From: Geodermatophilus sp. DSM 44513
Lineage (GTDB): Bacteria > Actinomycetota > Actinomycetes > Mycobacteriales > Geodermatophilaceae
NCBI RefSeq assembly: GCF_032460525.1
Contig: NZ_CP135963.1
Span: forward strand, 3,906,001 to 3,970,000
Length of the DNA: 64,000 nt
Reading direction: 5' to 3'
In this document: piece after piece, positions 17,558 through 22,297 of the stretch
How the letters are laid out: each line of letters starts with the position of its first letter
How positions within the stretch are numbered: the first letter of the stretch is position 1
Notes under the pieces: generated by a model
What the model saw: the letters and a program-made list of their open reading frames with translations, nothing else
What the model was told of the DNA's origin: nothing
Databases searched by the model: none
Program-made: the position numbers and the translations under genes

Positions 17558-18943
17558 ATGCCTTCCACGTCCACCGCCCGGCTCTTCGGCCGCGGTACCT
17601 GGGCCGAGACCAGCCGGGTCACCGACATCCTGCGCAAGGAGACCGTCGGCGGCGCCCTGCTGCTGGCCGCGGCGGCCGTCGCGCTGGCGTGGGCCAACTC
17701 GCCGTGGGGTGCGGCCTACGAGGCGCTGCGCGACACCGTGGTGGGCCCCGCCTCGCTGCACCTGGACCTGACCCTCGGCACCTGGGCGGCCGACGGGCTG
17801 CTCGCCGTCTTCTTCTTCGTGGCCGGTCTGGAGCTCAAGCGCGAGTTCGTCGCCGGCGACCTGCGCGACCCCCGCCGGGCGGCGCTGCCGATCGCCGCGG
17901 CCGTGGGCGGCATGGCCGTGCCGGCCCTGTTCTACGTGCTGCTCAACCTCGGCCGGGACGACGGGGCCCTGCGCGGGTGGGCCGTCCCGTCGGCCACCGA
18001 CATCGCCTTCGCCCTCGCCGTCCTGGCGGTGATCAGCACGCACCTGCCGGCCGCGCTGCGCACCTTCCTGCTCACCCTGGCCGTGGTCGACGACCTGCTG
18101 GCGATCCTGGTCATCGCGGTCTTCTACACCGAGGAGCTGTCGGTCGGGTTCCTGCTGCTCTCGCTCGTGCCGCTGGCGGTGTTCGGCCTGCTGGTGCAGA
18201 AGCGGATCCGGTCGTGGTGGCTGCTGCTGCCGCTGGCCGCCGTCACGTGGGTGCTGATGCACGAGTCCGGGGTGCACGCCACCGTCGCCGGGGTGCTGCT
18301 CGCCTTCACCGTGCCCGTGGTGCGCAGCGAGGCGGCCGGCGGTCCGGACGCCGGCCCGGGACTGGCCGAGCACTTCGAGCACCGGATCCGACCGATCTCG
18401 GCCGGCGTCGCGGTCCCGGTGTTCGCGTTCTTCTCCGCCGGCGTCGCGGTCGGGGGCGTGTCGGGCCTGCTCGAGTCGGTCACCGACAGCGTCGCCGTCG
18501 GCATCACCGTCGGCCTGGTGCTGGGCAAGGCCATCGGCATCACCGGGGCCACGTGGCTGGTCTCCCGGTTCACCCGCGCCGAGCTGGACAGCGAGCTCGG
18601 CTGGCCCGACGTCCTCGGCCTGTCGCTGCTCGGCGGCATCGGCTTCACCGTCTCGCTGCTGATCACCGAGCTGGCCTTCGGCATGGGCACGGAGACCTAC
18701 GAGCACGCCAAGGTCGGCATCCTGTCCGGCACCCTGCTCGCCGCGCTCCTGGCCGCGGTGATCCTGCGACTGCGCAACCGTCGCTACAAGCGGATCTACG
18801 AGGACGAGCGCGCCGACTTCGACCGCGACGGCATCCCGGACGTCTACCAGCGGGAGACCGTCGACGACCGCGCCGAGCACCGGCCCAGCTGGGAGGGCGC
18901 ACCCCCTCCCGGGCGCACCGCCGGCGGTTCCGCCGAGGGCTGA
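17558..18943 (+). CDS. nhaA: Na+/H+ antiporter NhaA
   Basis: NhaA extrudes Na+ (or Li+) in exchange for protons and controls pH and salt tolerance. The 461-residue protein has about 12 helices. The paired aspartates essential for ion exchange are in [19 protein letters not shown] near residue 170, and [15 protein letters not shown] precedes them. The core ends near residue 410. A hydrophilic tail follows with [12 protein letters not shown], resembling a D-x-D-x-D-G calcium-binding loop, then an acidic/Pro-rich end. The start has a CGGAG-type site about 9 nt upstream. Confidence 0.95.
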
Positions 18944-18952
18944 ACAACGCCG

Positions 18953-18981
18953 TTGCCGACCTCTCCGAGGCGACGTACCGT
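18953..18981 (+). promoter_or_regulatory. Strong promoter of the structured leader
   Basis: TTGCCG (18953-18958), a 17-bp spacer and TACCGT (18976-18981) give a near-ideal promoter starting transcription near 18988, about 9 nt before a perfect AGGAGG (18997-19002). Confidence 0.7.
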
Positions 18982-19013
18982 CGGGGTACACGAGAGAGGA
19001 GGTGGTCCGAGAA

Positions 19014-19052
19014 TTGAATTCTTACCGGACTCGTGAGGTGGCTGTCCGCTAG
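19014..19052 (+). CDS. Micro-ORF in the structured leader (12 codons)
   Basis: TTG 19014 lies 11 nt after AGGAGGTG, a perfect Shine-Dalgarno, and encodes MNSYRTREVAVR (TTG read as Met) before TAG. A GTG at 19002 would add four residues but touches the ribosome site. I recall a similar short TREVA-type peptide in other actinobacterial leaders but cannot name the family. The 3' half lies within the closing stem of the RNA described at 19037-19149, so translation would alter folding. Confidence 0.45.
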   Translation: MNSYRTREVAVR

Positions 19053-19149
19053 CCGCCGTCCAGATGGGCCGCCCGTTCGGAGTGGAATCCGAACGCAGGC
19101 TCGATCGCCCGTCCGTCGTACGGCGGCGAGCGAGAACCGGACAGTCACC
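19037..19149 (+). promoter_or_regulatory. Nested-stem structured RNA leader
   Basis: Three nested helices are visible. A 12-bp closing stem (19037-19048 with 19138-19149; one G-U pair), an 8-bp stem GCCGCCGT/ACGGCGGC (19052-19059 with 19120-19127) and a 7-bp apical hairpin GTTCGGA/TCCGAAC (19075-19094). The micro-ORF stop lies between the outer two stems. This fits an attenuator or translation-controlled switch for the gene at 19323, or a small RNA. It does not match TPP, cobalamin, glycine, SAM or tmRNA consensus that I know. The whole gap 18944-19322 has no conventional gene. Confidence 0.6.
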
Positions 19150-19322
19150 CGACCCCCGGGCCGCCGACACTTGTCCAGTCGGCCCACGCGCTGCCTCTGG
19201 CCCCGCCAGGTGAGTCGCCGTGGAGCAGCCCGGGGGTCGTCCGTCCTCCGGAGAGGCCCCTGCTGACCACCGGCGACTCCCCTGGCGCCTGGGTCGCCGC
19301 CGGTCTCCGGCGGGACCGCACC

Positions 19323-19958
19323 GTGGCCTCGCTCGTGCCCCCGGTCTTCACGGCCTACGCCCGGGTGCTGCACCCCGCCGTGCGTTACGCCGGGGACGAC
19401 GACGTCGACGTCCGCTGGGACGAGGTCGCGGCCCACAACGGCACCACCGCCCACCGGCTGGTGCAGTGGCCGGCCCTGACCGGCTCGTGGGAGCACGTCG
19501 GCGAGGAGGACCAGCCCGGCGTCTGGAACGACAGCCCCGCCGAGGGCCACCTCGCCGCGCACGTCGCGGCAGCGCTGGCCGGCCTGCTCACCGGGTGGAC
19601 GACCACGCCGCAGGACTGCTGGTTCGGCTGGTGCACCGACGCCGCGACCGACGCGCCTGGTGGCGGCCCGTACCTGCGCCTGCCCGGCTGCGACCTGCGA
19701 CTGCGCCCCGGCCCGGTGACGCTGGCCGCGGCCAACTTCGCCCCCGAGCCGCGGGAGCAGAGCGCGGCGGTGTGGTGGCCGGCCGACCGCGCCTGGTTCG
19801 TCGCCACCGACCCGACCCTGATGAGCACCTACCTCGGCGGGCCCGACGGTGCCGTCGACGCCGTCCTGACCTCCCCGCTGGAGGCCCACCCGGCACAGCC
19901 GGAGGACCCGGTCGGCTTCGACGCCGATCGGGTCAACCCCGCGCCGTCGCGCTGGTGA
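19323..19958 (+). CDS. Conserved hypothetical protein
   Basis: A 211-residue soluble protein without a catalytic motif that I recognise. It starts ASLVPPVFTAYARVLHPAVR and has DCWFGWCTD near residue 100 and Trp-rich VWWPADRAWFVATDPTLMSTYLGG near 160. The reading frame stays open upstream with plausible sequence (TTGDSPGAWVAAGLRRDRTV) to a CTG at 19263 preceded by a GGAGAGG stretch, so the true N-terminus is probably 20 residues longer with a CTG start. It is the first gene after the structured leader and therefore the likeliest target of that leader. Confidence 0.7.
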   Translation: MASLVPPVFTAYARVLHPAVRYAGDDDVDVRWDEVAAHNGTTAHRLVQWPALTGSWEHVGEEDQPGVWNDSPAEGHLAAHVAAALAGLLTGWTTTPQDCWFGWCTDAATDAPGGGPYLRLPGCDLRLRPGPVTLAAANFAPEPREQSAAVWWPADRAWFVATDPTLMSTYLGGPDGAVDAVLTSPLEAHPAQPEDPVGFDADRVNPAPSRW

Positions 19959-21751: not shown

Positions 21752-22297
21752 TCACCGGAGGCGCTCCAGCCGGGCGGACATGGTGGGCCGCAGCGGCCCG
21801 TCGGCGTCGGCGCGGTCGATCGCGTACATCAGGGCCCCCTCGACGATGCCGTAGAGCCGGACGGACCGGGACACGTCCGGGGCGTCCGGCGTGCGGGCGA
21901 GGACGTCGCTGGTGAGCTCCCAGCTGGTCGTCGTCCGGGCCCGCCCGACGTAGAGCTCGACGAGCCCGTCGGGGCTGGTCACCAGCAGCTCGACGTCGTC
22001 GCGGCCCCGCGGCCGCCAGAAGCCGGACTCGCGGACGGCGGGCCCGGCCACCCGTCCGTCGTCGGTCAGCCGCCAGGTGCGCGACTCGTAGGCCAGGAAG
22101 GCACGGCCGTCGTGGCCGAAGCGGGTCCACTGGCCGAAGCGGACGTCACCGGCCGACCCGGCCACCGCGCTGGTCATGACGCCCTCCCCGTGCCACTCCC
22201 CGAGCAGCGGGAGCACGGCGAGCAGCTCCTCGGAGACGTCCGGTCCGGAGCGGACGTCGACGGTGTCCGGGACCGGCAGCTCGGTGCCGCCGGTCAC
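21752..22297 (-). CDS. Nitrobindin-like heme-binding beta-barrel protein
   Basis: A 181-residue FABP-like protein (DUF1794/THAP4 C-domain). The family start LLGEWHGEG is near residue 32, followed by ESGFWRP near 90, which marks nitrobindins that bind ferric heme and react with NO or peroxynitrite. The heme-ligating His near the C-terminus cannot be confirmed here because the tail (MYAIDRADADGPLRPTMSARLERL) lacks an obvious one. GTG 22297 overlaps the preceding 34-residue ORF (GTGA). Its mycobacterial counterpart (Rv0813c, from memory) also neighbours sseC-cysA2. Confidence 0.85.
   Translation of the reverse strand: MTGGTELPVPDTVDVRSGPDVSEELLAVLPLLGEWHGEGVMTSAVAGSAGDVRFGQWTRFGHDGRAFLAYESRTWRLTDDGRVAGPAVRESGFWRPRGRDDVELLVTSPDGLVELYVGRARTTTSWELTSDVLARTPDAPDVSRSVRLYGIVEGALMYAIDRADADGPLRPTMSARLERLR

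Follow-up and report, generated by a model that had tools for sequence, protein, structure and literature searches.

The 64,000-nt stretch of Geodermatophilus sp. DSM 44513 DNA analysed here, referred to below as the window, holds a structured RNA gene on the forward strand at 18988-19245. A gene for NhaA (17558-18943) precedes the RNA, a gene without Pfam match (19323-19958, + strand) begins 78 nt after the RNA match on the same strand, and a THAP4-like haem-binding gene lies on the reverse strand at 21755-22297, 2.5 kb from the RNA. The covariance-model match to Rfam RF02471 (Ms_IGR-5) spans the whole model, positions 1-184, and at 89.4 bits (E 1.7e-18) lies well above the gathering score of 45. 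It is the sole Rfam match above gathering score within the window, and no second match at E<=1 was found in 18900-19400. The initial annotation had matched the element to no known riboswitch class and taken it to extend to 19149; both points are superseded by this full-length match, which places its end near 19245. The original report of Ms_IGR-5 is that of Li et al. (2013). Rfam describes the family as 'Actinobacteria sRNA', and its transcript has been reported in M. smegmatis, S. lividans and S. avermitilis in the accessible portions of three papers (PMC10454040, PMC8780764, PMC8079986).

Copies of RF02471 were found in 55 of 61 related genomes, the genome under study being counted. A model built from the 5' module alone (R1, whose training sequences had start codons) recovered the module in 249 of 394 genomes of the class and 147 of 396 genomes of the phylum, nearly always as a single copy per genome among the matches listed; in the genome under study, the best match had an E value of 1.7e-23 and the next one 0.003. 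Since the RNA recurs across class and phylum genomes, the RF02471 RNA at this locus is, judging from its distribution, a widespread standalone RNA rather than a local leader. A free RNA had been one of the options initially offered, and it agrees with the occurrence of the family far beyond Geodermatophilaceae. For comparative purposes, 116 Rfam-found loci were collected, the 5 weakest of 121 places being left out, and were combined with 65 pattern-found loci from named organisms to give 164 distinct modules; the pattern search had returned at least 119 stretches, of which 54 without an upstream GGRGGTGRT, including the truncated locus L063, were dropped. A longest-ORF scan of the flanks often picked wrong frames and served for leads only. 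The pattern search for the RNA gave no match in viral contigs. An unverified 'Bacteriophage sp.' record from human faeces (MT835602.1, L383) carries a full RF02471 RNA at 1492-1667 (76.9 bits), with a micro-ORF of 12 codons from a GTG start to a TGA stop, and is either a prophage-borne copy or misfiled actinobacterial DNA.

The genes adjoining the RNA are shared within the family only. Gene 19323 lies within 1.5 kb in 33 of 35 other Geodermatophilaceae loci and NhaA in 32 of 35, each being present in 0 of 80 loci outside the family; a THAP4-type gene is found downstream on the opposite strand, within 1.5 kb, in 22 of 116 loci. With its neighbour in none of the outside loci, the RNA is not supported as being primarily a leader of gene 19323, as had been suggested, and is read from the sequence comparison as one that acts on its own, although a family-specific read-through effect on 19323 may exist. 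Nor is a metabolite riboswitch indicated, the downstream gene not being kept outside Geodermatophilaceae and no other Rfam match being present.

Upstream of the RNA, a promoter at 18953-18981 on the forward strand is predicted from its sequence and its conservation in relatives, and comprises TTGCCG (18953-18958), a spacer of 17 nt and TACCGT (18976-18981). Its description as near-ideal was overstated, as the arrangement fails the 9-of-12 sigma-70 consensus threshold of the scanning tool, though it is conserved in relatives: TAnnnT begins 12-14 nt ahead of the ACRC start in 110 of 110 scorable relatives (of 127), and TTG is located 17-18 nt upstream of TAnnnT in 99 of the 110.

The 5' part of the RNA carries an extended Shine-Dalgarno sequence, AGAGAGGAGGTGGTCC (18993-19008, + strand), able to form 16 consecutive pairs, including two G.U, with the tail at the 3' end of 16S rRNA; its partner there is GGAUCACCUCCUUUCU, found at three places in the genome. 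The Shine-Dalgarno sequence previously called perfect, AGGAGGTG, is indeed present at 18997-19004. The energy computed for the duplex of AGAGAGGAGGTGGTCC and the 16S tail is -30.0 kcal/mol, and the next best value in the window, an overlapping frame of the same site aside, is -20.9 kcal/mol among the sites with at least 6 consecutive pairs for which energies were scored; the next longest run of pairing to the 16S tail in the window has 11 pairs. The 4.63 Mb genome contains the 16-nt pattern at four sites, three of them antisense to the three 16S genes and the fourth here; the reversed control occurs 0 times. The 12-mer AGGAGGTGRTCC, with 9 genome occurrences against 10 for its reversed control, is about as frequent as the control, and therefore 12 nt alone are not special, whereas the 16-nt version is.

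Scored against the tail of this genome, the homologues retain all 16 pairs in 147 of 164 modules, 15 pairs in 15 and 12 pairs in 2. Part of the module set was chosen by a 9-nt Shine-Dalgarno motif, of which the count at position -4 is independent: this position, opposite C, is G in 164 of 164 modules. Positions -1 to -3, opposite U, hold mixtures of A and G with one T, and position -5 is A or G in 151 of 164. Bases outside the search requirement, such as -4, may thus be taken as a sign of selection on pairing with 16S rRNA.

The micro-ORF (19014-19052, + strand) begins with a TTG codon 11 nt past GGAGG and 26 nt from the predicted 5' end of the RNA, and reads TTG AAT TCT TAC CGG ACT CGT GAG GTG GCT GTC CGC TAG. 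The 12 codons ahead of its TAG stop encode MNSYRTREVAVR, in agreement with the ORF initially noticed, and its start, stop and frame are conserved. A canonical start in frame with the stop is present in 147 of the 164 distinct modules, the other 17 having non-canonical codons. With reference to the in-frame GAG anchor, a canonical start lies 7, 8 or 9 codons before it in 144 of 164 modules (TTG in 101, ATG in 32, GTG in 11), and a stop stands exactly 5 codons past it in 159 of 164 (TAG in 138, TGA in 13, TAA in 8). Although the distance from the Shine-Dalgarno sequence to GAG is spread over the three phases (56/48/40 of 144), the ORF remains in frame; the in-frame ORF lengths seen are 10, 12, 13, 14 and 15 codons. 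The spacing from GGAGG to the start is 9-13 nt across modules, mostly 10-12, and exceeds the usual optimum.

The GAGGTG motif is nearly invariant among the modules. A subgroup with a shortened loop (L226, L231, L232, L235, L317, L333, L343) reads it in another frame, and its members except L226 retain a 10-codon TTG ORF; in L231, L232 and L235 this ORF runs from TTG to TAG in the different frame relative to GAGGTG, and L226, likewise in the other frame, reads from ATT. The 16 of 164 modules without a canonical GAG-frame start have CTG, ATC, ATT or ATA instead, with one ACG (L201), and all but L195 come from outside the class; the further outside-class loci with such starts are L203, L204, L206, L209, L211, L212, L216, L218, L220, L222, L223 and L227-L229. 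Each of CTG, ATC, ATT and ATA is one change off ATG, and they could represent a deliberately weak start.

Replacement of start and stop codons was counted on a tree built without the start and stop columns from 124 loci selected for canonical codons at the standard place (L195 is similar in other respects but has ATC and was left out), and at least 14 start-codon and at least 10 stop-codon changes are needed on it. When the loop is shuffled, a suitable ORF arises on average in 7.4% of cases and in 23% at most; this is the only chance estimate used, and the 111 of 111 loci with an ORF in that test are conditioned on the known start. By a looser criterion and without a shuffle control, 69 further loci comprise 63 with a canonical ORF, 3 with a near-cognate start and 3 unparsed, one of which (L322) has a 15-codon TTG ORF by eye; among the 60 further loci whose module is not identical to the ones used, 55 are canonical and 2 near-cognate. 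In L262, the usual TAG is TGG and the ORF continues to a TGA at 17 codons, a natural stop-loss allele.

The encoded peptides change completely in sequence while the ORF persists, as seen from MNSYRTREVAVR, MLKTSGGDCR, MHSTSGGGSS and MSSDCPSVTVEVMRR. A REVA[VA] stretch is frequent in the peptides of class Actinomycetes, and the conserved residues are those encoded in RNA helices or motifs. From these comparisons, the start, stop and frame of the micro-ORF look to be under selection, and the peptide looks not to be conserved beyond what the RNA motifs demand. In the accessible portion of a Ribo-seq study, significant ribosomal reads on MS_IGR-5 are reported for both M. abscessus and M. smegmatis; its authors add that footprints are seen on many ncRNAs and that the ribosome-protected ones among their non-coding RNAs 'lack clear evidence of translation' (PMC4974804). 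The reads lend independent, weak support to translation of the micro-ORF.

Only 1 of 200 dinucleotide shuffles folds as well as the 258-nt RNA or better (z -4.3). The minimum-energy fold of the RNA contains the helices P1, P3 and P4, and the fold predicted for a 173-nt piece without P4 is devoid of P1. Helix P1 pairs CACGA (18989-18993, + strand) with TCGTG (19031-19035, + strand), that is, CACG/CGTG and a weaker fifth pair, and surrounds the Shine-Dalgarno sequence and the start codon. Across its first four pairs, 97.1% of cells are paired and 42 both-side changes are counted against a shuffle mean of 5.4 and at most 10 in slid controls; the fifth pair does not form in 53 of 80 sequences. For P1 alone, the tally of pairs with both-side changes is unremarkable (301 of 500 shuffles are as high and one slid version is higher). 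When P1 is counted together with a candidate helix P2 (GUCC 19005-19008 with GGAC 19027-19030), three of five measures exceed all 500 shuffles, and the number of both-side-changed pairs is matched by 187 of 500 shuffles and is higher in two slid versions. The comparative case for P1 accordingly rests on how many both-side changes it has and on how large a share of its cells is paired. Helix P2 itself was rejected: 98.4% of its cells pair, with no covariation beyond shuffles; it may form as a transient helix.

Helix P3 pairs GGTGGCTGTCCG (19037-19048, + strand), which comprises ORF codons 8-12, with CGGACAGTCACC (19138-19149, + strand), and is indicated by 12 of 12 pairs in the window, by covariation and by the fold. 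In the 99 of 127 loci on which it was scored, the 28 without the 3' motif being left out, 50 cells have changes on both sides, where shuffles average 6.1 and reach at most 36; the 11th pair forms in only 36 of the 99. In deep-branching loci, P3 as drawn is at chance level, with a best complement of 8-11 of 12 as in shuffles. The end of the ORF falls within the 5' strand of P3, as had been noticed when the ORF was said to end inside the outer stem.

The 3' hairpin P4 (19150-19239, + strand) lies beyond the interval initially delimited. Its outer stem consists of CGACCCCCGGGC (19150-19161, + strand; Rfam alignment and fold) and GCCCGGGGGTCG (19228-19239, + strand; sequence and fold), its inner hairpin is GCCGAC-ACTTGTCCA-GTCGGC (19163-19183, + strand), and no T-run follows it in the window. 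Three nested helices had been proposed; the helices hold, and it is the arrangement that differs, with P1, a long hairpin P3 and the extra P4. The structure line of Rfam RF02471 is without P1 and the pseudoknot described below, and draws the first helix elsewhere than here.

The strand GGAC (19027-19030, + strand) within ORF codons 5-6 can pair with GTCC in the P4 loop (19173-19176, + strand), the contact being marked by GGAY:RUCC covariation. In the Nocardioides group, where 75 of 215 genomes match the pattern and at least one of these (G900) is chance-like, the GGAC of the ORF is often GGAU. The P4 loop is AUCC in 33 of 33 GGAU loci (30 of the Nocardioides group and three others; 32 distinct), and each of nine GGAC loci has GUCC there, 7 according to a script that admitted GUCC or AUCC loops only and the other two by eye. 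The 5' strand of P2 does not track GGAU: it stays GGUCC in 14 of the 33 loci, even as the P4 loop there is AUCC, and is GAUCC in 19, and therefore the pseudoknot, not P2, is the supported partner.

The 33 GGAU loci are related, and the contact recurs phylum-wide with other letters and up to 7-8 bp, for example as GCGCGACC/GGTCGCGC, TGTGACG/CGTCACA and CCGGACG/CGTCCGG. A search over all strong hairpin loops found a run of at least 5 pairs in 98 of the 130 distinct segments, where shuffling gave 61.1 on average and never more than 72. Some of these matches lie in loops other than P4; the window is one such case, its P4 contact being 4 bp and the script favouring a 5-nt complement in a loop of P3. 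The first automatic search of the P4 loop was weak, with 107 of 186 against 89.3 in shuffles (maximum 102), and 28 of 63 against 25.8 (maximum 34) in deep loci. Taken together, a pseudoknot joining ORF codons 5-6 to the loop of the 3' hairpin is supported by the sequence comparison. The initial annotation had named a lack of conservation and covariation in relatives as what would speak against it; the comparison was run, the ORF proved to be conserved and P1, P3 and the pseudoknot covary, an outcome that goes against refutation.

The nucleotides of the ORF thus double as parts of the fold, with codons 5-6 in the pseudoknot, codons 6-8 in P1 and, in class Actinomycetes, codons 8-12 in P3; nearly every codon past the fourth is a structural strand as well. 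As the ORF codons are themselves strands of P1, P3 and the pseudoknot, translation and this fold are mutually exclusive by geometry, which bears out the earlier proposition that translation competes with folding. We consider it probable, on comparative grounds, that the RNA at this locus is a translation-gated RNA switch of the Ms_IGR-5 family. The comparison supports its 5' part as a micro-mRNA, formed by a conserved ORF of 10-15 codons and a Shine-Dalgarno sequence that complements the entire single-stranded tail at the 3' end of 16S rRNA. In the folded RNA, the start codon would be hidden in a closed loop, and the very long Shine-Dalgarno pairing could supply the energy for a 30S subunit to invade the stable fold. 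A ribosome starting at 19014 and stopping at 19050-19052 would have to unfold the base of P3 together with P1 and the pseudoknot. With many initiating ribosomes available, the RNA would be open and probably inactive or unstable; with few, it would be closed, and the closed form may act in trans. The wider reading, in which a phylum-wide RNA measures free ribosomes, ribosome passage through a peptide-indifferent micro-ORF opens a pseudoknotted fold, and the closed form works in trans when translation falls, is put forward tentatively, at slightly less than even confidence. We know of no standalone ribosome-gated RNA switch of this kind.

The main rival to such a switch is an anti-Shine-Dalgarno decoy: leaderless mRNAs are common in actinobacteria, and the RNA could park 30S subunits at a slow start, titrate Shine-Dalgarno-dependent initiation and so favour leaderless messages. 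The 16-nt complementarity, which only the antisense of 16S shares in this genome, would fit a decoy, as would the mostly weak starts (TTG in 101 of the 144 canonical GAG-frame starts) and the ribosomal reads on MS_IGR-5 given in the accessible portion of PMC4974804. A decoy requires no stop codon, frame or pseudoknot, yet all of these are conserved, and it would need an abundance near that of ribosomes; we regard it as unlikely, though worth keeping in view. The act of translation might alternatively serve as a ribosome shield, its sole effect being to guard the 5' end from nucleases or lay it open to them and so to set the half-life of an RNA whose 3' body is active. The start of the micro-ORF 26 nt from the predicted 5' end and the unconserved peptide agree with a shield, which taken alone leaves the use of ORF codons as strands of the pseudoknot and P3 unexplained and appears improbable.

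The remaining explanations dispense either with translation or with the standalone nature of the RNA, or place the function in the peptide. If the RNA were purely non-coding and its ORF a by-product of motifs kept for RNA reasons, then P1, P3 and the pseudoknot would account for much of codons 5-12 and the GAGGTG motif would be expected to vary as little as it does; start codons, however, give way to other start codons and stop codons to other stop codons without a change of position, and the frame is held over 10-15 codons, in a different GAGGTG frame in L231, L232 and L235, which leaves this explanation very improbable. We give a similarly slight chance to a cis leader that controls gene 19323 via read-through or attenuation, for which the same-strand position of the gene 78 nt past the RNA match, in 33 of 35 other family loci, and the lack of a T-run after P4 here can be cited; beyond Geodermatophilaceae the gene is missing within 1.5 kb from all 80 loci, and the RNA anatomy is the same there. 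That the micropeptide itself is the functional product seems scarcely credible: the REVA[VA] stretch of class Actinomycetes would favour it, but the sequences change completely as the ORF stays (MNSYRTREVAVR, MLKTSGGDCR, MSSDCPSVTVEVMRR), and the conserved residues fall in RNA helices or motifs.

Among known systems, attenuator leader peptides and translation-sensing leaders are those in which ribosome transit through a short ORF decides the RNA fold, and the proposed switch would resemble them in that transit of a short ORF selects between folds. Attenuator leaders precede the gene they control, whereas the RNA here, which has a 3' hairpin of its own and neighbours that differ between loci, looks standalone. 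The small protein of VcdRP of V. cholerae itself has a role, in contrast to the peptide of the RNA here, which drifts, so that only the act of translation looks selected; the likeness to such dual-function sRNAs with small ORFs, as far as the accessible account of them goes, is that of one RNA serving as both regulator and mRNA.

An 'sRNA' family without a function thereby gains a selected reading frame, a complete docking site for the 16S tail and a pseudoknot, which makes its function directly testable, and this anatomy may explain the published ribosome reads on Ms_IGR-5. The case is also a warning that selection on a conserved ORF can act on its translation and not on its peptide; screens for peptide conservation would miss such ORFs. 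If the switch model is true, actinobacteria, including antibiotic producers and major pathogens, would have a general RNA sensor of translation capacity. In the accessible portions of the open-licence literature (PMC8079986, PMC4974804, PMC8780764, PMC10454040), a set that does not cover Li et al. 2013, there is no mention of a micro-ORF, 16S complementarity, a pseudoknot or a function for Ms_IGR-5; the anatomy of selected ORF, 16S docking site and pseudoknot is taken to be new for a known family, its priority being not certain.

Identity of RF02471 with Ms1, the RNA that binds the RNA polymerase core, was considered and rejected, as the two are separate loci in the accessible portions of PMC10454040 and PMC8079986, and all inferences on RNA polymerase were dropped with it. 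The portions at hand list IGR-5 (ncMSMEG15794c) apart from Ms1 (PMC10454040), place Ms_IGR-5 of S. lividans at 3,696,473 and 6C at 4,531,561 (PMC8079986), and locate Ms1 one gene away from 6C (PMC6582537). Ms1 has been reported absent in Geodermatophilales (PMC9130861), and the idea that the RNA here fills that gap was likewise dropped, IGR-5 and Ms1 being different loci. Like Ms1 and 6S-like RNAs, the RNA here is a structured RNA of actinobacteria, 200-300 nt in length, that has a long hairpin; the difference is the separate locus of Ms_IGR-5. The Ms1 neighbourhood, a HAD-IB hydrolase and oxidoreductase pair, is not seen here, where the RNA is flanked by NhaA and the gene without Pfam match. 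At a mycobacterium-like locus (L001), for which 1.5 kb on each side was covered, the upstream gene is Aminotran_4.
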